From Oscillospiraceae bacterium (GTDB lineage: Bacteria > Bacillota > Clostridia > Oscillospirales > Acutalibacteraceae), in the NCBI GenBank assembly GCA_902792905.1, contig CADBBH010000015.1, positions 1 to 47,476 of the forward strand: 47,476 nucleotides of DNA. The letters are read 5' to 3'. The notes below the pieces were generated by a model, which saw only the letters and a program-made list of their open reading frames with translations, searched no databases and was not told where the DNA came from. Positions 11,860-22,514 of this stretch are shown one piece after another; positions within the stretch are counted from its first letter, which is position 1, and the number at the start of each line of letters is the position of its first letter. The position numbers and the translations under genes were made by a program.

Positions 11860-11888
11860 TTGACATTATATAGTAGTTTTGTTATACT
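11860..11888 (+). promoter_or_regulatory. purine operon promoter
   Basis: TTGACA (11860-11865) and TATACT (11883-11888) with a 17-base spacer. The predicted start near 11895 leaves a leader of about 134 bases before purE. TTGTGCAAA at 11830-11838 lies 21 bases upstream of the -35. Confidence 0.85.
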
Positions 11889-12028: not shown

Positions 12029-12523
12029 ATGAAAAAAGTCGGAATTGTCATGGGCAGCGACAGCGATCTTCCCATCATCAAAAAAGCGACCGATACCCTC
12101 GACGCATTCTCCATCCCCTACGAAGTGCATATCTATTCGGCACACCGCACACCGGAGCAGGCCAAAAATTTTGCGGCATCCGCTGCAGATAACGGATTCG
12201 GCGCAATAATTGCAGCCGCAGGTATGGCTGCTCATCTCGCGGGAGCAATAGCGGCAAACACCGTTTTGCCCGTTATCGGCATACCCTGCAAATCAACAAC
12301 ACTGGACGGCATTGACGCCCTTTTATCCACAGTTCAGATGCCCTCGGGGATACCTGTAGCCACTGTAGCGATAAACGGAGGAGTTAATGCCGCTTTACTT
12401 TGCGCTGAGATTCTCGCTGTTGAGGATAATGAGCTCAGACAAAAGCTGATTGATAAAAGAAATAAAGACGCCGCGGCAGTCCTTGCAAAGGATGCGGACG
12501 TGATGAATAAACTTAAAGATTAA
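12029..12523 (+). CDS. purE: PurE, N5-carboxyaminoimidazole ribonucleotide mutase
   Basis: PurE converts N5-CAIR to CAIR in purine synthesis. The 164-residue protein shows class I features: GSDSDLP near the start, SAHRTPE around residue 38, and GMAAHLAG and GIPCKS for the nucleotide site. AAGGAGG precedes the ATG. It is first in the operon, just after the leader terminator, so its expression and that of eight downstream genes depend on read-through. PurK, PurC, PurB and PurA are not in this window, so partners must lie elsewhere. Confidence 0.96.
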   Translation: MKKVGIVMGSDSDLPIIKKATDTLDAFSIPYEVHIYSAHRTPEQAKNFAASAADNGFGAIIAAAGMAAHLAGAIAANTVLPVIGIPCKSTTLDGIDALLSTVQMPSGIPVATVAINGGVNAALLCAEILAVEDNELRQKLIDKRNKDAAAVLAKDADVMNKLKD

Positions 12524-12537
12524 CGGAGAGAGAAATT

Positions 12538-13962
12538 ATGGGCGGATTTTTCGGAATCACATCAAAAGAGAACTGTCTGAGCGACGTATTCTTCGGCACG
12601 GACTATCATTCACATCTCGGCACAAGAAGAGGCGGCATCGCCGTCTATGATAAGGAAATCGGTCTTCAGAGGGAAATTCACAATATCACGAACTCCCCTT
12701 TCAGGACCAAGTTTGACAAGATTTTTGAGGAGATGCAGGGCACCTCGGCAATCGGCTGCATCAGCGATACCGATCCCCAGCCGCTGCTTATAAGCTCAAA
12801 TCTCGGCAACTACGCCATCTGCATTATCGGCATCATCAACAATTCGCAGGAGCTCATCCAGCAGTTCCTCTCATTCAGCGGCGGCCATTTCAACGCTATG
12901 ACCGGCAGCAAGATAAATCAGACCGAGCTTGTCGCGGCGCTGATTAACCAGAAGAGCGATTTCACCGAGGGCATAAGATTTGCCCAGAAATCGATTGAGG
13001 GCACGGCGTCAATCCTCCTGCTTCGCGATGATGGCAGCATAATCGCGGCGCGCGACCGCCTCGGCAGACTGCCCGTGCTTATCGGCAAGGGCGAGAACGG
13101 CTACGCTGTCACCTTTGAATCCTTCGCATATCAGAAGCTCGGCTATGTTGACGAGAAGGAGCTCGGGCCGGGCGAGATAGTCGAGATTACTCCCGACGGA
13201 ATCAAACAGCTCTCCCCTCCCGGCAAGAAGAAAAGAATCTGCGCTTTCCTCTGGAGCTATTACGGATATCCGACGGCGACCTATGAAGGCGTCAATGTAG
13301 AGATGATGAGAAACAGAAACGGCGCGATTATGGCCGAGCACGATAAAGAGCTCGGCAACGCCGAGGGAATAGATTTTGTCGGCGGCGTTCCCGATTCGGG
13401 CACCGCTCACGCGATAGGCTATTCCAATAACGCCCATGTTCCCTACGCGAGAGCGTTTATCAAATACACTCCGACCTGGTCGAGAAGCTTCATGCCGACG
13501 ATGCAGAGCGAGAGAAACAGAATCGCGAAAATGAAGCAGGTCCCCGTGCTCGATTTGATCAGGGACAAGAACCTCCTCTTTGTTGATGACTCGATAGTCA
13601 GGGGCACACAGCTCAAGGAAACGGTTGAATTCCTTTACGGAAACGGCGCTAAATCCGTCCACATGCGCTCCGCCTGCCCGCCCATCATGTATGGCTGCAA
13701 ATATCTCAACTTCTCGCGCTCGACCAGCGATATGGAGCTCATCGCAAGGCGCGTTATAGTCGAGCTTGAGGGCGAGGAAGGCTTTAATTATATCGAAGAA
13801 TACTCCGACGGCAACACAGAGAGAGGCAAAGCGCTCAGGAAGGCAATCTGCGATAAGTTCAATTTTTCATCGCTTGAATTCCAGTCTCTCGAAGGAATAA
13901 TCAAGGCAATAGGCATAGACCCCGACGACCTCTGCACCTACTGTTGGAACGGAAAGGAATAA
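12538..13962 (+). CDS. purF: PurF-type amidophosphoribosyltransferase lacking the N-terminal cysteine
   Basis: PurF makes phosphoribosylamine from PRPP and glutamine-derived ammonia. The PRPP loop LLFVDDSIVRGTQ (346-358) is intact. Cys235, Cys387, Cys466 and Cys469 (CTYC) match the [4Fe-4S] ligand pattern of Bacillus-type PurF; Cys380 is another cysteine near Cys387. The Ntn-hydrolase domain, however, begins MGGFFGITSKE where the family has (M...)CGxFG: the nucleophile Cys1 is Gly. No in-frame upstream codon supplies a cysteine. The enzyme should be unable to hydrolyse glutamine in the usual way and may use free ammonia or another amidase, or have a regulatory role. Start has GGAGAGAG; 14 bases from purE. 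Confidence 0.92.
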   Translation: MGGFFGITSKENCLSDVFFGTDYHSHLGTRRGGIAVYDKEIGLQREIHNITNSPFRTKFDKIFEEMQGTSAIGCISDTDPQPLLISSNLGNYAICIIGIINNSQELIQQFLSFSGGHFNAMTGSKINQTELVAALINQKSDFTEGIRFAQKSIEGTASILLLRDDGSIIAARDRLGRLPVLIGKGENGYAVTFESFAYQKLGYVDEKELGPGEIVEITPDGIKQLSPPGKKKRICAFLWSYYGYPTATYEGVNVEMMRNRNGAIMAEHDKELGNAEGIDFVGGVPDSGTAHAIGYSNNAHVPYARAFIKYTPTWSRSFMPTMQSERNRIAKMKQVPVLDLIRDKNLLFVDDSIVRGTQLKETVEFLYGNGAKSVHMRSACPPIMYGCKYLNFSRSTSDMELIARRVIVELEGEEGFNYIEEYSDGNTERGKALRKAICDKFNFSSLEFQSLEGIIKAIGIDPDDLCTYCWNGKE

Positions 13963-13965
13963 GCT

Positions 13966-15009
13966 ATGAATACACAATCAAAATCAGACAGCTACGCATC
14001 AGCGGGCGTTGACATAACTGCAGGCTACAAAGCTGTTGAACTGATGAAAAAACATATAGCGAGGACTTCAGTCCCCGGCGCGGATACGGATATCGGCGGT
14101 TTCGGCGGCCTGTTTGAGCTTGACCTGACCGGCATTTCAAAGCCGGTGCTCGTGAGCGGCACGGACGGCGTCGGAACAAAGCTCAAAATCGCATTCCTAA
14201 TGGATAAGCATGATACGGTCGGCATAGACTGCGTCGCGATGTGCGTAAACGATATCATCTGCGCCGGAGCAAAGCCGCTGTATTTCCTTGATTATATCGC
14301 CTGCGGCAAGAATTATCCCGAAAAGATTGCGGATATCGTCAAGGGCGTATGCGAGGGCTGCGTTCAGTCCGGAGCGGCGCTCATCGGCGGCGAGACCGCG
14401 GAGATGCCCGGCTTCTATCCGGTTGACGAATACGATCTCGCGGGCTACTGCACCGGCATAGTCGACAAGGATAAGATAATCGACAACAAGACCATGAAGG
14501 CCGGCGACGTTATAATCGCCCTGCCCTCGAGCGGCGTTCACTCAAACGGCTTCTCTCTGGTCAGAAAAGTATTCGACGTTGAAAACGCGGATATAAAGAC
14601 TCCGCTTGAAGCGCTCGGTGGAAAGAGCCTGGGCGAAGCGCTGCTGACTCCGACGAAGATTTATGTAAAGCCCGTTCTCGCCCTGCTTGAAAAGGTTAAG
14701 GTAAAGGGAATATCCCATATCACGGGCGGCGGCTTCTATGAGAATATTCCGAGAAGCATTCCCGACGGCCTCGGCGCGGTTATCAACAAAGCCGACATAA
14801 AGATTCTGCCGATATTCAAACTGCTTGCCGAAACGGGCAATATCAGCGAGAGAGATATGTTCAACACCTACAACATGGGCGTCGGCATGAGTATAGTCGT
14901 CGCTCCCGAAGATGTTGATACCGCTCTTGAAATTCTTAGGGCAAACGGCGAGGACGCCTATGTAATCGGCAGGATTGAAGAATCCGAAAACAAAATCACG
15001 CTCAGCTGA
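13966..15009 (+). CDS. purM: PurM, phosphoribosylformylglycinamidine cyclo-ligase
   Basis: PurM closes the imidazole ring, turning FGAM into AIR with ATP. The protein has the usual 347 residues, with the ATP-site segments [12 protein letters not shown] and [11 protein letters not shown] and the later [12 protein letters not shown] and HSNGFSLVR motifs of the PurM/PurL/SelD superfamily. It starts three bases after purF ends, with GGAAAGG at the end of purF as its ribosome site. Nothing unusual. Confidence 0.97.
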
Positions 15010-15018
15010 GGTAAAAAG

Positions 15019-15627
15019 ATGAAAGACAAGGCAAACGTTGCCGTGCTCGTTTCGGGAGGCGGCACCAATCTGCAGGCGATAATCGACGCAGTCAATTCGG
15101 GAATTATCACCTCCGCGAAGCTGCAGATAGTCATTTCAAATAATCCGGATGCCTATGCGCTCGAAAGAGCCAGGAAAAACGGCATAAAGACCGCTGTCAT
15201 AACCAAAAAGGAATGCGGCGGCGCAGAGGCGTTTGAAGCAAAGATAATCGAAACGCTCGAGAGCGAGGATATCGATTTAATCGTTCTCGCGGGATTCATG
15301 AGCATACTCAGCAAGAATTTCACGGACAGATTCCCCGAGAGAATCATAAACGTTCATCCGTCTCTGATTCCATCATTCTGCGGCGAAGGCTTCTACGGGC
15401 TGAAGGTCCACGAAGCCGCGCTCGCGAAGGGAGTCAAGGTAACGGGCGCCACGGTGCATTTTGTGAACGAAATTCCCGACGGCGGCAAAATAATACTGCA
15501 GAAAGCCGTTGAGATTGAAGAGGGCGACACGCCTGAAATTCTGCAGAAGAGAGTAATGGAACAGGCCGAGTGGATAATTCTTCCCAGGGCCGTTGAACTG
15601 ATAAGCAAAGAAATTACGGGAGGGTAA
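15019..15627 (+). CDS. purN: PurN, glycinamide ribonucleotide formyltransferase
   Basis: PurN transfers the formyl group of 10-formyl-THF to GAR. The 202-residue protein has SGGGTNLQAI near the N-terminus, the catalytic NVHPSLIPS with Asn111 and His113, and Asp154 in EIPDGG, matching the Asn/His/Asp triad of the family. Its cofactor is made by the fhs product at the end of the operon. The IMP cyclohydrolase start lies two bases beyond its stop, so they are probably translated together. Confidence 0.97.
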   Translation: MKDKANVAVLVSGGGTNLQAIIDAVNSGIITSAKLQIVISNNPDAYALERARKNGIKTAVITKKECGGAEAFEAKIIETLESEDIDLIVLAGFMSILSKNFTDRFPERIINVHPSLIPSFCGEGFYGLKVHEAALAKGVKVTGATVHFVNEIPDGGKIILQKAVEIEEGDTPEILQKRVMEQAEWIILPRAVELISKEITGG

Positions 15628-15629
15628 TT

Positions 15630-16349
15630 ATGGATATTTACAAAATCAACAAAATCGACGAACTCATCACCGGCAACCCCTATGTCGGCAGAGGAATCAT
15701 TGTCGGCAAGAGCGCAGACGGCAAAAGCGCAGTTTCCGCATATTTCATTATGGGCAGAAGCGCAAACAGCAGAAACAGAGTTTTCACAGAGAAAAACGCA
15801 GAAGTATTCACCGAGCCTTTTGACGCTTCAAAGGTCGAGGACCCGAGCCTGATTATTTACGCGGCAATCCGCAAATACGGTAACGCTCTTATCGTCACCA
15901 ACGGCGACCAGACCGATACGATTTATGACGGTCTCAAAGCGGGCAAATCCTTCTCCTGCGCGCTCACAAGCAGAGAATTTGAACCCGACAAACCGAATTT
16001 CACTCCGAGAATCAGTGCCGTTTCATATTTTGCGGATAAAGATTTCACCTACGAGATGAGCATTCTCAAGAGCGCGGACGCCGACGGCACCGCCTGCAAC
16101 AGATACACTTTCTCATATAATCCCCTCCCCGGTCTCGGCCATTTCATTCATACCTATGTGACCGACGGCAATCCGATTCCGACCTTCCAGGGCGAGCCCG
16201 AGAGAGTATTCGTCGGCAACGATATCGACGAATTCACCGACACTCTCTGGAACGCGCTCGACGCGGATAACAAGATTTCACTCTATGTAAGATATACAGA
16301 CCTTGAAACAGGCGCAGAAACCAACAGAATCATCAACAAAAACAATTAA
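15630..16349 (+). CDS. purO: PurO-type IMP cyclohydrolase
   Basis: The 239-residue protein resembles the PurO family (PF07826) that catalyses the last step, FAICAR to IMP, in archaea and in some Clostridia. Recognisable segments are the start NPYVGRGIIVG, MGRSANSRNRVF, GNGDQTD-like TNGDQTDTIYDG and the YNPLPGLGHFIHTY region. It replaces the MGS-type cyclohydrolase half of bifunctional PurH. It is directly followed by a stand-alone AICAR transformylase, so the pair together equals PurH. GGGAGG precedes the ATG. Confidence 0.9.
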   Translation: MDIYKINKIDELITGNPYVGRGIIVGKSADGKSAVSAYFIMGRSANSRNRVFTEKNAEVFTEPFDASKVEDPSLIIYAAIRKYGNALIVTNGDQTDTIYDGLKAGKSFSCALTSREFEPDKPNFTPRISAVSYFADKDFTYEMSILKSADADGTACNRYTFSYNPLPGLGHFIHTYVTDGNPIPTFQGEPERVFVGNDIDEFTDTLWNALDADNKISLYVRYTDLETGAETNRIINKNN

Positions 16350-16360
16350 GGAGAAGCAAA

Positions 16361-17545
16361 ATGAAAGAATTCGAACTCAAATACGGTTGCAATCCCAATC
16401 AGAAGCCCTCAAAAATCTTTATGGCTGACGGCACCGACCTGCCTATCGAGATTCTCAACGGCAGACCCGGATTCATCAATTTCCTTGACGCCTTCAATTC
16501 CTGGCAGCTTGTAAAGGAACTCAAAGAAGCTCTCGGCATGCCCGCAGTCACTTCTTTCAAACACGTAAGCCCCACATCCGCCGCAGTCGGCACAAAGCTC
16601 TCCGATACGCTTAAAAAAGCTTATTTTGTTGATGATATAGAAGGTCTCGACGATTCTCCCCTCGCATGCGCTTACGCGAGAGCGAGAGGCACGGACCGTA
16701 TGTGCTCCTTTGGAGACTGGGTCGCTCTCTCGGATGTTTGCGATGTAACCACCGCAACTATGATCAAGAGAGAAGTATCGGACGGAATCATCGCTCCCGG
16801 ATATGAGCCGGAGGCGCTTGAAATCCTCAAATCAAAGAGAAAAGGCACTTACAATATCGTAAAGATTGATCCCGATTATGTACCCGACCCCGTTGAGCAT
16901 AAGCAGGTGTTCGGAATCACCTTCGAGCAGGGCAGAAATAATTTTGAAATCAACCGCGAACTGCTCGCGAATATCGTTACCGAGAATAAGGATATGCCCG
17001 AATCGGCTGTCAGGGATCTTATAATCAGCCTTATCACTCTCAAATACACGCAGTCAAATTCAGTCTGCTACGCCTATGACGGCCAGGCAATCGGCGTGGG
17101 CGCGGGCCAGCAGTCGAGAATTCACTGCACCCGTCTCGCAGGCACTAAGGCGGATACCTGGTTTCTGCGCCAGCATGAGAAGGTTCTCAATCTCCCGTTC
17201 CGCTCGGATATCGGCAGACCGGACAGAGACAATATCATTGACGGATATATCAACAAAAACGAAGAGGATGTCTGCGCGGACGGTATCTGGCAGAAGTATT
17301 TCACCGAGCAGCCCGCACCGCTGACCGATGAGGAAATCAAGGCATATCTTGCCACAAAGACCGATGTTGCTCTCGGCTCGGACGCTTTCTTCCCGTTCTT
17401 TGATAACATCGAGAGAGCATACCGCAGCGGCGTCAAATACATTGCGGAGCCCGGCGGCTCAATCAGAGACGATCTTGTAATCGACTGCTGCAACAAATAC
17501 GGTATGGTAATGGCATTTACCGGAATGAGACTTTTCCATCATTGA
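16361..17545 (+). CDS. stand-alone AICAR transformylase
   Basis: The 394-residue protein corresponds to the C-terminal formyltransferase domain of PurH, which converts AICAR to FAICAR using 10-formyl-THF. Lys67-His68 in FKHVSPTSAA occupies the place of the catalytic KH in PurH (KHxNPCG), but Asn-Pro-Cys is changed to Ser-Pro-Thr. Segments TQSNSVCYAYDGQAIGVGAGQQSR and EPGGSIRDD are typical of the family. It lacks the MGS cyclohydrolase domain, which PurO supplies. AAGGAGAAGC precedes the start. It lies between purO and purD. Confidence 0.93.
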   Translation: MKEFELKYGCNPNQKPSKIFMADGTDLPIEILNGRPGFINFLDAFNSWQLVKELKEALGMPAVTSFKHVSPTSAAVGTKLSDTLKKAYFVDDIEGLDDSPLACAYARARGTDRMCSFGDWVALSDVCDVTTATMIKREVSDGIIAPGYEPEALEILKSKRKGTYNIVKIDPDYVPDPVEHKQVFGITFEQGRNNFEINRELLANIVTENKDMPESAVRDLIISLITLKYTQSNSVCYAYDGQAIGVGAGQQSRIHCTRLAGTKADTWFLRQHEKVLNLPFRSDIGRPDRDNIIDGYINKNEEDVCADGIWQKYFTEQPAPLTDEEIKAYLATKTDVALGSDAFFPFFDNIERAYRSGVKYIAEPGGSIRDDLVIDCCNKYGMVMAFTGMRLFHH

Positions 17546-17557
17546 GGTGAAAAACTT

Positions 17558-18826
17558 ATGAATATAATCGTAATCGGCTCCGGCGGCAGAGAGCACGCTG
17601 TCATCAAAAAGCTGAAAGAGAGCCCTCTCTGCGGCACTGTTTATGCCCTGCCCGGCAACGGCGGCATGGCGGATGACGCTGTCTGCGTGCCGATAAAGGC
17701 CACTGATATTGAAGCGATAGCGGAATACGCCGTTTCAAACAATATCGACTACGCGGTCGTAACTCCCGACGATCCGCTCGTTCTCGGATGCGTTGACGCC
17801 CTCGAAGCCAAAGGTATAAAGTGCTTCGGCCCGAGAGCAAACGCCGCGATAATCGAAGGCAGCAAGGTATTCTCCAAAAATCTGATGAAGAAATACGGAA
17901 TACCGACCGCCGCCTATGAGACTTTTGACAATGCGCAGGCCGCTCTCGATTATCTCGAAAGCGCAAAGACTCCGATAGTCATAAAGGCTGACGGCCTCGC
18001 GCTCGGCAAGGGAGTAATAATCGCTCAGAATAAAGAAGAGGCCCGCGAAGCCGTTATCTCCATTATGGAGGATAAGAAATTCGGCGCAAGCGGCAATCAC
18101 ATAGTTATCGAAGAATTCATGACAGGCCCCGAGGTTTCCGTTCTCGCATTCACGGATGGCAAATGCGTAAAGCCGATGGTCTCCTCAATGGATCACAAGC
18201 GCGCGCTTGATAACGATGAAGGTCTCAATACCGGCGGTATGGGCACTGTCGCTCCGAATCCTTATTATACTAAATCAGTCGCGAATGAATGTATGGATAA
18301 GATTTTTATCCCGACAATGAACGCGATGAATACTGAAGGCAGAACCTTCAAAGGCTGCCTCTACTTCGGCCTTATGATAACTCCCGACGGTCCGAAGGTT
18401 GTTGAATATAACTGCCGTTTCGGCGACCCGGAAACACAGGTTGTGCTTCCGCTTCTAGAAAGCGATCTGCTTGAAATAATGCTTGCAGTAACAAACGGGA
18501 CGCTCTCTGATACAGAGGTTAAAATCTCGGAAAAGAGCGCCTGCTGCGTAATCATGGCTTCCGAAGGTTATCCTGTTTCCTATGAGAAGGGGTACGAGAT
18601 TGAGGCGGATGACGAAGTGAAGAAAGATATCTACTTTGCGGGCGCAAAGCTTGCCGGCGGAAAGCTTCTCACGGATGGCGGAAGAGTTCTCGGCGTCACC
18701 TCGGTCGCGGATACGCTTGAAGAGGCAATCGCCGCCTCATACAAAAAGGCGGAAAAGATTAAATTTGCGAATGCGTTTTACAGACACGATATAGGAAAAC
18801 GGGCGCTGGAGGCAGGAAAGGAGTAA
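17558..18826 (+). CDS. purD: PurD, phosphoribosylamine-glycine ligase
   Basis: PurD joins glycine to phosphoribosylamine with ATP. The 422-residue protein starts IVIGSGGREHA, the usual PurD N-terminus, followed by an ATP-grasp domain with IVIKADGLALGKGV, GPEVSVLAF and VVEYNCRFGDPETQ. Length and motifs are normal. It uses the unstable product of PurF, and the two lie in the same operon. The purL start is only one base beyond its stop. Confidence 0.97.
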   Translation: MNIIVIGSGGREHAVIKKLKESPLCGTVYALPGNGGMADDAVCVPIKATDIEAIAEYAVSNNIDYAVVTPDDPLVLGCVDALEAKGIKCFGPRANAAIIEGSKVFSKNLMKKYGIPTAAYETFDNAQAALDYLESAKTPIVIKADGLALGKGVIIAQNKEEAREAVISIMEDKKFGASGNHIVIEEFMTGPEVSVLAFTDGKCVKPMVSSMDHKRALDNDEGLNTGGMGTVAPNPYYTKSVANECMDKIFIPTMNAMNTEGRTFKGCLYFGLMITPDGPKVVEYNCRFGDPETQVVLPLLESDLLEIMLAVTNGTLSDTEVKISEKSACCVIMASEGYPVSYEKGYEIEADDEVKKDIYFAGAKLAGGKLLTDGGRVLGVTSVADTLEEAIAASYKKAEKIKFANAFYRHDIGKRALEAGKE

Positions 18827-18827
18827 T

Positions 18828-21800
18828 ATGGTTTACAGAGTATATACCGAAAAGAAACAGGGCTTCAATAACGAGGCGAAGACTCTGCTTTCCGATTTCA
18901 GAACCCTGCTCGGAATAACTTCGCTTGAAAATGTTCGTCTTATCAACAGATATGACGCCGAACAGATTGCCGAAGATATATTTGAAAAAGCGGTACCGAC
19001 CGTTTTCTCCGAGCCTCAGGTCGACAATGTTTATGACGAACTGCCGGACGAAGGCGCAACAGCATTCGCGGTTGAATATCTGCCGGGTCAGTTTGATCAG
19101 AGAGCTGATTCCGCAGCACAGTGTATTCAGATCATGTCGCAGGGCGAGCGCCCCGTTATCCGCTCCGCTAAGGTCTATCTGCTCTATGGAAATCTCAGCG
19201 CCGGGCAGATTGCGGAAATCAAGAAATATGTCATAAACCCGGTAGAGGCGAGAGAAGCGAAACTCGAGAAACCCGAAACAATTATCACAAAATATGAGAT
19301 TCCGACAACGGTCGAAACTCTCGACGGTTTCATCGTTCTTTCCAGAGATGAACTTGAAAAATTCGTTGAGAATTACGGCCTCGCGATGGATGCGGACGAT
19401 ATAGAATTCTGTCAGAATTATTTCAAATCTGAGCAGCGCGACCCGACAATCACCGAAATCAGGATGATTGACACCTACTGGTCGGATCACTGCAGACACA
19501 CCACCTTCCTCACGACCATTGATAAAGTGAGTTTTGAGGATGAACTGCTTCAGAAGGCTTATGACGAATATATAGCCGTCAGGAAAGAACTCGGCAGGAC
19601 AAAGCCGATCTGCCTTATGGATCTGGCAACCGTGGCAGTCAGATATCTCAAAACTCAGGGCAAGCTCAATAAGCTCGATGAATCCGAAGAAATCAACGCC
19701 TGCACGGTCAAAATCAATGTTGATGTTGACGGTGTTTCCGAGCCCTGGCTCCTGCTCTTCAAGAATGAAACGCACAATCACCCGACAGAAATCGAGCCAT
19801 TCGGCGGCGCCGCTACATGTATAGGCGGAGCTATAAGAGATCCTCTTTCGGGCAGATCCTATGTTTACGGCGCAATGCGCGTCACGGGCGCGGCCGATCC
19901 TCTCAAGCCCATCAGCGAGACGATTCCCGGCAAACTCCCGCAGAGAAGCATTGTCACCACCGCGGCCGCCGGCTATTCATCCTACGGCAATCAGATAGGC
20001 CTCGCTACCGGTATAGTCGATGAGCTCTATCATCCCGGATACGCGGCAAAGAGGATGGAAATCGGCGCTGTCATAGCGGCCGCTCCCGCGGAGAATGTCA
20101 GGCGCGAAGTCCCCGCCCCCGGCGATGTTGTTATCCTGCTCGGCGGCGCGACCGGCAGAGACGGTATCGGCGGCGCGACAGGCTCATCCAAAGCGCACAA
20201 TATGCATTCGGTTGAGACATGCGGAGCTGAGGTCCAGAAGGGCAACGCACCCGAGGAGAGAAAGCTTCAGCGTCTCTTCAGAAATCACGATGCCTGCCGC
20301 ATGATAAAGCGCTGCAACGACTTCGGCGCGGGCGGCGTATCGGTTGCAATCGGCGAACTTGCGGACGGTCTTGAAATCGACCTGAACGCTGTTCCCAAGA
20401 AATATGACGGCCTTGACGGCACTGAACTTGCAATCAGCGAATCGCAGGAGAGAATGGCCGTCGTTATCGAAAAAGAGAATATAGATGCCTTCCTCGCCCT
20501 CGCTCAGAGCGAAAACCTCAACGCAACAGTAGTTGCCGAGGTAAAAGCGGAGCCGCGCCTTGTCATGAACTGGAACGGTAAAACAATAGTTAACATCAGC
20601 CGTGAATTCCTAAACTCTAACGGCGCTGAAAAGCACATTGAAATCGAAGCGCCCGAGATAAAATCATTTGATAAAGAGTATTCGGGCGATTTTACCGAAA
20701 ACTATAAAAAGCTGGCGGGCGACCTGAACATCTGCTCGAAGCGCGGTCTGAGCGAAAGATTCGACTCGACAATCGGAGCAGGAACAGTTCTTATGCCTTT
20801 CGGCGGCAAATATCAGCGAACACCTATCCAGGCGATGGTCCAGAAGATTTCGGTTGAGAAGAAACATACCGACGACTGCTCCGTTATGAGCTGGGGCTAT
20901 AACCCGTTCATTACGGAAAAGAGCCCCTATCACGGCGCTTATCTTGCGGTCATTGAATCCGTATCGAAGGTGATTTCTACCGGAGCTTCATTTGAGGATA
21001 TGTATCTTACATTCCAGGAATACTTTGCAAGACCCGGCAGGGATTCAAAGCGCTGGGGCCAGCCGCTTTCCGCACTGCTCGGCGCATTCAAAGCCCAGCT
21101 TGAGCTCGGAATCGGCTCTATAGGCGGCAAGGACTCAATGAGCGGCTCTTTTGAAAAGCTTGATGTTCCGCCCACGCTCGTTTCGTTTGCGGTAACCACC
21201 GATAAAATCAAGAATATTATTTCCCCCGAATTCAAGAGCGCGGGCAATAAAGTCATCTTCCTTAAACCCGATTATGACGAGAACGGTCTGCCCGTCACTG
21301 CTTCGCTTCTCAAAGTGTTTGAAACGGTTACATCCCTTGTCCGCTCGGGCAAAGCCGTATCGGCCTACACTCCCGGCGAGGGCGGAATTGCGGAAGCGGT
21401 CCTCAAAATGTGTATGGGCAACGGCCTCGGCTTTGAATTCTCCGGAGCTCTTCAGGAGAAGGATATATTCGCCTATAATTACGGCGCGTTCATTCTCGAA
21501 GTCACCGACGCGGCGGATTTCACTGTCATAGGCGAAGTTACGGATAAGTGTGAAATTGCTTACGGCGAAGCTTGTGTCAATCTCGCGGAGCTCTGCGATA
21601 TATATGAAAACAAGCTCGAGAGCGTATTCAGCTGCAACATAAAGAACAACACCACACCCGTCAAGAATTTCTCCTACGAATGCGGTGAAAGAAGAAGCGC
21701 GGCGATTAAAACCGCTAAACCGAAAGTGCTTATCCCCGCCTTCCCGGGCACAAACTGCGAATTCGATTCCGCGAAGGCTATGCGCGACGCGGGAGCGGAA

Positions 21801-22514
21801 CCCGAGATTATGGTTATCAACAACCTCTCGTCCGACGGCATCCGCAGAAGCGTTGATAAATTTGCGAATGCGCTCAAAGATACGAATATGATATTCATCC
21901 CGGGCGGATTCTCCGGCGGCGACGAGCCCGAGGGAAGCGGCAAATTCATAACCGCGTTCTTTAGGAATGATTCGATCAAAGAGAGCGTAACCGATCTGCT
22001 TGAAAACAGAGACGGCCTCATCTGCGGAATCTGCAACGGTTTCCAGGCACTTATCAAGCTCGGCCTTGTACCCTACGGCAAGATAATCGACGCCGATGCC
22101 GACTGCCCGACGCTGACATTCAACACCATAGGCAGGCACCAGTCAAAGATAGTCAGGACAAGAATCGCTTCCAATAAATCTCCCTGGCTCTCATTCACGA
22201 ATGTCGGCGATGTTTACTCAGTCCCGATTTCACACGGAGAAGGCAAATTCATCGCAAGCGACGCTCTTATGGCAGAGCTTGAAACGAACGGGCAGATAGC
22301 TACGCAGTATGTTGACCTTAACGGCAATGCAACCGATGACATTCAGTTCAATCCGAATAATTCCTACTGCGCGGTTGAAGGCATCACTTCGCCCGACGGC
22401 AGAGTGTTCGGCAAAATGGGTCACTCCGAGAGATGGGGCGCGGGGCTGTACAAGAATGTTCCCGGCAACTATGATATAAGAATGTTTGAATCCGCGGTTA
22501 AATATTTCAAATAA
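18828..22514 (+). CDS. purL: PurL, single-chain FGAM synthase
   Basis: The 1228-residue protein joins synthetase and glutaminase in one chain and converts FGAR to FGAM. The synthetase part has [29 protein letters not shown] and repeated PurM-like domains. The C-terminal class I amidotransferase has ICGICNGFQ with nucleophile Cys1069, then ISHGEGKF with a catalytic His. The architecture matches the Clostridia-type clade of large PurL. The glutaminase is intact, in contrast to the PurF of the same operon. GGAAAGGAG precedes the ATG; fhs follows 13 bases later. Confidence 0.96.

Follow-up and report, generated by a model that had tools for sequence, protein, structure and literature searches.

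Purine synthesis is described in teaching as committed by a step that depends on glutamine, and the locus analysed here raises the question of how that step is taken by a PurF that carries glycine where the catalytic cysteine should stand. The window, that is the whole 47,476-nucleotide stretch of Oscillospiraceae DNA that was analysed, encodes such a protein within a pur operon (Table 1).

Glutamine site, synthase half and fold of the window PurF

The N-terminal Cys nucleophile of class II glutamine amidotransferases is absent from the window PurF, which opens MGGFFGITSKE from an ATG at 12538. In the alignment to B. subtilis PurF (1ao0), window Gly3 lies opposite residue 2 of the mature protein, and so Gly2 occupies the Cys1 position. 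A wrong start that hides a Cys-containing propeptide was ruled out, given that the nearest upstream in-frame stop, TAA at 12514-12516, lies 21 nt before the ATG, which is preceded by GGAGAGAG, and that the seven residues between them (RLTEREI) are free of Cys. A 217-aa open frame antisense to purF (13009-13662, minus strand) is probably a by-product of codon bias.

As judged from the alignments, the remaining parts of the glutamine site have also changed, a point that the first-pass annotation understated in pointing to Cys1. RYxT, AHNG and SDTE, which we take to be the glutamine-binding residues of PurF (Arg73, Asn101 and Asp127 in E. coli PurF), are all lost: aligned to 1ao0, AHNG reads CIIG, and SDTE becomes NQTE after a 5-residue insertion. 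The same sites are lost, with the QHRGQ Arg replaced by Leu27, when the protein is aligned with Cys-PurFs of its own order. Cys74, which stands at the place of a canonical His, was considered as a replacement nucleophile acting with the Gly amine and was rejected, since it is invariant in 14 rows but gives way to V, G or S in six rows of a set of 76.

The PRPP loop DDSIVRGT is present, and the four cysteine positions of a B. subtilis-type Fe-S cluster are all occupied, the cluster being predicted from these residues. An AlphaFold model built on 55 rows (pLDDT 87.8, pTM 0.86, pLDDT below 50 only at residues 312-318) has the two-domain Ntn and phosphoribosyltransferase fold of PurF; its best solved match is 1ao0 (TM 0.81/0.84), and the top 17 hits in the PDB are all chains of PurF. 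On the NCBIfam purF profile TIGR01134 the protein scores 159.3 bits, below the 350-bit cut-off, which is a fair test since eight of eight Cys-PurFs, seven of them from the same order, score 490-529 bits. Among Pfam domains, GATase_7 reaches 33 bits (cut-off 25), GATase_6 remains at 16.8 bits (cut-off 27) and the phosphoribosyltransferase match is sub-threshold. The protein shares with B. subtilis-type PurF (1ao0, 1gph; EC 2.4.2.14) the two-domain fold, PRPP loop, Fe-S cysteine positions and pur-operon context, but is only 27% identical to it and lacks Cys1, the RYxT loop, the AHNG Asn and the SDTE Asp. On its residues, it lacks the defining glutamine features of PurF, and by context it would work like the synthase half of that enzyme.

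Several readings of the first-pass annotation are thereby borne out, namely Gly in place of Cys1, no in-frame Cys upstream and a preserved PRPP loop with four Fe-S-type cysteines; its intact PurL Cys1069 was likewise correct, residue 1069 being Cys.

Table 1. Features of the Gly1-type purF gene and its operon (window coordinates unless a locus is named)
Feature	Position	Strand	Basis
Promoter-like TTGACA-17-TATACT before purE	11860..11888	+	consensus match only
purE, first operon gene	12029..12523	+	TIGR01162, 193.6 bits (cut-off 149.6)
purF, Gly1 form, 474 aa	12538..13962	+	ORF, alignment, AlphaFold model, 1ao0 match
MGGFFG start, Gly2 at place of catalytic Cys1	12538..12555	+	alignment
DYHSHLGT, clade-specific motif replacing canonical ALQHRGQ; canonical Arg to Leu27	12601..12624	+	alignments
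GCISD, residues 73-77; canonical GHVRYxT glutamine loop with 8-residue deletion	12754..12768	+	alignment
I-I-G, residues 96-98, where canonical has H-N-G	12823..12831	+	alignment
N-Q-T-E, residues 127-130, where canonical has S-D-T-E; Asp lost	12916..12927	+	alignment
Cys235, Fe-S position	13240..13242	+	alignment
Flexible loop K309..K333 (KYTPTWSRSFMP), with one residue more than the 1ao0 loop; pLDDT low at 312-318	13462..13536	+	
PRPP-binding loop LLFVDDSIVRGTQ, residues 346-358	13573..13611	+	alignment
Cys387, Fe-S position	13696..13698	+	alignment
Cys466 and Cys469 (CTYC), Fe-S positions	13933..13944	+	alignment
purM	13966..15009	+	ORF, Pfam
purN	15019..15627	+	ORF, Pfam
IMP cyclohydrolase-like gene	15630..16349	+	PF07826
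Separate AICAR transformylase-like gene	16361..17545	+	PF01808
purD, user of phosphoribosylamine	17558..18826	+	TIGR00877, 514.6 bits (cut-off 288)
purL, 1228 aa; Cys1069 present in the C-terminal glutaminase domain	18828..22514	+	Pfam, residue check
Full-length carB upstream of Gly-PurF, no carA beside it (family f39)	L204:5146-9812; also L205-L208	same as Gly-PurF	

Spread and conservation of the Gly form

Gly2 of the window protein is not a product of chance or sequencing error, since 143 of 150 clade copies have Gly at residue 2, seven have Ser and none has Cys (127, 4 and 0 among 131 distinct copies); the 150 comprise 78 copies from named loci and 72 from other genomes, with L079, L132 and pieces below 440 aa dropped. 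The four distinct copies with Ser (SGFFG) are represented by loci L044, L141, L145 and L221. The first-pass annotation mentioned similar N-termini in other gut anaerobes, and rightly so: at least 593 of the 594 candidate stretches listed in a GTDB scan encode relatives. The 80 loci kept among the matches listed come mostly from Clostridia metagenome bins, many of them from animal guts, and named carriers among those matches include Criibacterium bergeronii and Candidatus Agathobaculum stercoravium. Across the phylum, 12 of 199 sampled genomes carry the Gly form. On a FastTree tree of 131 sequences (75 Gly-form, 56 Cys-form), an analysis proposed at first pass, all Gly forms fall into one group with support 0.83, on a stem of 1.97 substitutions per site.

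MGGFFG, DYHSHLGT, G73-I75-D77, Q81-P82 and N102 show little or no variation in 76 rows, which include the window and omit 5 of the 80 named loci that lack a usable start or match. In 55 rows the PRPP loop is nearly invariant and the four Fe-S cysteines are fully invariant. Among 12 hand-picked pairs, dN/dS is 0.02-0.11 in both halves of the protein in the 11 computable pairs, the N-half dS being saturated in the twelfth. The clade is under strong purifying selection in both halves, and these ratios rule out the N-domain as a degrading pseudogene. The N-domain matches the other half in conservation and has motifs of its own, more than a mere dead glutaminase would need, and this counts against the ammonia reading given below. 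Conversion of this domain into a new amidase, or one using another nitrogen donor, with other residues in place of Cys1, would fit the newly invariant D22, Y23, H24, S25, H26, Q81 and N102 (55 rows) and the seven copies with Ser2; Ser2 is nevertheless rare, Cys74 varies and no Cys is invariant in the N-domain of the 55 rows, and such a conversion is judged most improbable.

Genomes and operons that carry the Gly form

The 158 genomes of the order, 157 rated at least 97% complete plus the window's own at 84%, were sorted by match number and E-value, with totals that agree with the search tallies: 30 have the Gly form only, 55 the Gly form and another PurF match, 68 the Cys form only and 5 neither, the "both" class resting on match counts with the second match inspected in part of the genomes. 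A second PurF with Cys1, whose search the first-pass annotation had advised, is present in the window's own genome. With G022, G025 and G026 added, 33 Gly-only genomes rated at least 96% complete were searched with TIGR01134, and none has a PurF over the 350-bit cut-off. A Cys-type piece lies at a contig edge in G382, which probably belongs to the "both" class; in the other 32 no Cys-PurF was seen. PurD exceeds its cut-off in 32 of the 33, although the matches of G265 and G369 hold an in-frame TAA, and is found in one of the five genomes without any PurF. The exception among the 33 is G056, with Ser at position 2 and neither PurD nor CarB, whose PurF possibly has another role or is a remnant. 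The Gly form is thus the sole PurF seen in 31 genomes in which its product still has a user, and the retention of PurD without another PurF over the cut-off argues that the Gly form very probably makes phosphoribosylamine.

These genomes bear directly on a further proposal of the first-pass annotation, a regulatory or moonlighting paralogue that makes no phosphoribosylamine and serves as a PRPP or nucleotide sensor or as partner subunit of a Cys-PurF. Co-occurrence of both forms in 55 of 158 genomes, their adjacency in some (among the matches listed, G276, G291, G301, G315, G325, G337, G354 and G359; also G054) and the existence of Gly copies outside the pur operon are consistent with it. A paralogue of this kind should accompany an active enzyme, however, and the proposal misfits the 33 genomes without a PurF over the cut-off, 32 of which keep PurD. 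The Gly form also occupies the purF slot of the operon, and in Salmonella, according to PMC3485032, no PurF-independent route gave enough phosphoribosylamine for purines; a purely regulatory role is very unlikely.

At the 80 named loci, purE lies upstream of Gly-PurF in 66 of 69 testable cases and purM after it in 67 of 69, with purD downstream in 44 of 45 and purL in 43 of 45; a Cys-PurF adjoins it in 5 of the 80. The Gly-only genomes G056, G278, G265 and G343 have no labelled pur gene alongside Gly-PurF. Copies at L216, L217 and L218 (G032, G002 and G052) stand beside guaA, two of them also beside purC, and G032 and G002 have two Gly-PurF copies each. In the window, the PurO-like IMP cyclohydrolase and the AICAR transformylase (15630-17545) are separate genes, with no fused PurH. 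Promoter-like sites (19, and 11.7 in shuffles) and terminator-like sites (17, and 12.3 in shuffles) carry little weight, and no Rfam family reached its gathering score in the window or in L184.

Of the ORFs that intervene between pur genes, 32 lie between purE and purF, 13 between purM and purN and 3 between purV and purD, with a few single ones elsewhere. Ten of them were scanned: three code for SAICAR synthetase (purC), four for formate/nitrite transporters, two for serine hydroxymethyltransferase and one for a xylose-isomerase-like protein, and none is an amidase. The gene of about 205 aa between purM and purN was rejected as an amidase in this way, its four scanned copies being formate/nitrite transporters (PF01226; L094:4919-5527, L100:10405-11013, L120:12486-13112 and L096:5052-5675). 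Similar transporter ORFs were found by motif at 14 of the 80 loci and may supply formate for the formyl steps.

The normal Cys-PurF of the window's genome is the last gene after glnA, an amt-glnK fusion (ammonium transporter fused to P-II) and a split glutamate synthase (L184:8220-18076, G000:C9). Among 22 "both" genomes of the order with the two genes apart, a hand-picked, non-random set in which G280 was placed by coordinates, the Cys-PurF lies beside glnA, amt-glnK, glt, ANTAR, carAB, pyrG or guaA in 18, in the pur operon in 2 and in neither context in 2. Ten Cys-only loci divide equally between pur operons and nitrogen or glutamine-enzyme clusters. Outside the order, the arrangement is reversed in six of eight "both" genomes examined (families f39, f43 and f80), whose pur operon holds the Cys-PurF and whose Gly form is encoded at another site. 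A Cys-type PurF with one in-frame TAG occurs at G046:C19:14437-15639, in a genome without CarA and glutamate synthase.

Ammonia use by the Gly form predicts a weaker dependence on glutamine routes in the genomes that rely on it, and this prediction was tested. Glutamate synthase (PF01645) occurs in 4 of the 30 Gly-only genomes, in 54 of the 55 in the "both" class and in 51 of the 68 Cys-only genomes (Fisher p 1e-16, Gly-only versus "both"; z 6.8 for Gly-only versus the rest stratified by family, strata that correct kinship only partly). One of the four Gly-only exceptions is G382, whose move to "both" gives 3 of 29 and 55 of 56; the enzyme is also absent from 17 of the 68 Cys-only genomes. Physical linkage of the Cys-PurF to glt or carA is frequent, and a single deletion could then remove both; linkage explains part of the co-absence, but 18 "both" genomes have a one-piece GltB that is not of the split operon type. 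Genomes with CarB and no CarA number 13 of 29 in the Gly-only class, 2 of 54 in the "both" class and 5 of 67 in the Cys-only class (stratified z 4.5, with kinship again corrected only in part), and CarA is still present in 16 of the 29. Genes for carB outnumber those for carA in 34 of 83 Gly-bearing and 6 of 67 Cys-only genomes, eight genomes with two weaker carB matches each being counted as having one, inferred to be split. That the missing Cys-PurF is an artefact of incomplete or mis-binned assemblies would suit the many Gly-only genomes in dozens of contigs and the truncated Cys piece of G382, but is scarcely credible when 32 genomes of such completeness show nothing and the pattern matches the absence of glutamate synthase and CarA.

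In family f39, four genomes carry five Gly-PurF copies, each directly behind a full-length carB without an adjoining carA (one of these carB genes was checked by Pfam), and G215 has two such pairs; the only carA of these genomes lies beside the other carB. G168 of the same family, without Gly-PurF, has one carA and one carB as a pair. Six further genomes were searched: carB genes exceed carA genes by one in G155 and G244, G080 has one of each, G253 has none, and G112 and G218 have two of each, the second carB being on another contig than the second carA. The genome of the window itself carries a single carB and a single carA, as well as glutamate synthase. Upstream of purE in L059, L101 and L113, ORFs of 1057-1060 aa are followed by others of about 245, 303-316, 232 and 210-223 aa, a series that by size looks like a carB-containing, carA-less pyrimidine operon next to the pur operon.

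PurQ feeds small PurL, and on this model a separate glutaminase could act in trans, binding the remodelled N-domain and channelling ammonia to Gly-PurF. The strongly conserved N-domain with its clade-specific motifs is what such an interface would look like, but the ten scanned ORFs of the pur operons are not amidases, the carB-purF strand of the f39 loci L204 and L205 has no further ORF above 150 aa within 5 kb, that of L207 has a single one of 335 aa at a distance of 1.4 kb, and Gly-only genomes lean away from glutamine enzymes. The partner amidase raised by the first-pass annotation thus finds no support in the gene neighbourhoods examined; a glutaminase coded elsewhere is possible, and the arrangement as a whole is unlikely.

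Ammonia as the probable nitrogen donor

Direct use of ammonia, the best supported of the three options in the first-pass annotation, is predicted from the genomes. It is likely that Gly-PurF is a working PRPP amidotransferase without glutaminase, which makes phosphoribosylamine from PRPP and free ammonia and is paired with the Cys form as an isozyme. The loss of the glutamine site, the conservation, the Gly-only genomes with PurD, the operon contexts and the co-occurrence patterns are observed; from them we infer ammonia as the substrate and nitrogen-dependent switching of isozymes. The PRPP-binding half is intact and the N-terminal half keeps its Ntn fold, although the old glutamine site would have been remodelled for some other conserved purpose, perhaps to admit ammonia, to bind a partner or to cap the structure. 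In many species, including that of the window, Gly-PurF is the pur-operon isozyme, and a normal glutamine-using PurF encoded with nitrogen-assimilation genes would step in at low ammonia supply; genomes without the glutamate synthase route would usually retain the ammonia form alone.

In E. coli PurF, Cys1 to Ala or Ser mutants lose glutamine activity and keep ammonia activity (Mei and Zalkin 1989, cited in PMC3261824). The catalytic Cys is absent and ammonia serves as donor in these mutants, which are laboratory-made with an otherwise intact glutamine site, whereas Gly-PurF is a natural clade that would fix the Cys1-less, ammonia-using state and drop the glutamine pocket. The same paper describes Mlab_0150 of Methanocorpusculum labreanum, also a PurF paralogue without Cys1 but with Ser, a relatively recent duplicate of true PurF that its authors suspect is not the enzyme. 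The CarB subunit makes carbamoyl phosphate from ammonia, and E. coli CarB without CarA is likewise a synthase on ammonia with its glutaminase absent, although E. coli CPSase needs very high, likely unphysiological, ammonia concentrations; CarB differs in serving the pyrimidine/arginine pathway and in having a separate glutaminase subunit, that of PurF being a fused domain (PMC6245113). Evenly balanced, in our judgement, is a wider reading in which an ammonia-driven nucleotide module, made up of Gly-PurF and a CarB that lacks CarA, uncouples the first steps of purine and pyrimidine synthesis from glutamine throughout a gut-anaerobe clade; whether this module accompanies the glutamine-driven set or replaces it would depend on possession of the glutamine synthetase/glutamate synthase route.

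Gly-PurF is a variant of the known enzyme PurF, of which no earlier report was found in the open-access literature searched. Gly-only gut bacteria probably start purines from ammonia rather than glutamine, as their gene content suggests. If so, many gut Clostridia would begin purines from ammonia, glutamine analogues would miss this step in them, and genome-scale models and the annotation "amidophosphoribosyltransferase, glutamine-requiring" would be wrong for them. Gly-PurF as the only PurF would then be a sequence marker of an ammonia-fed way of life, and genomes with both forms would hold natural pairs of isozymes, with the choice of PurF expected to follow nitrogen status.
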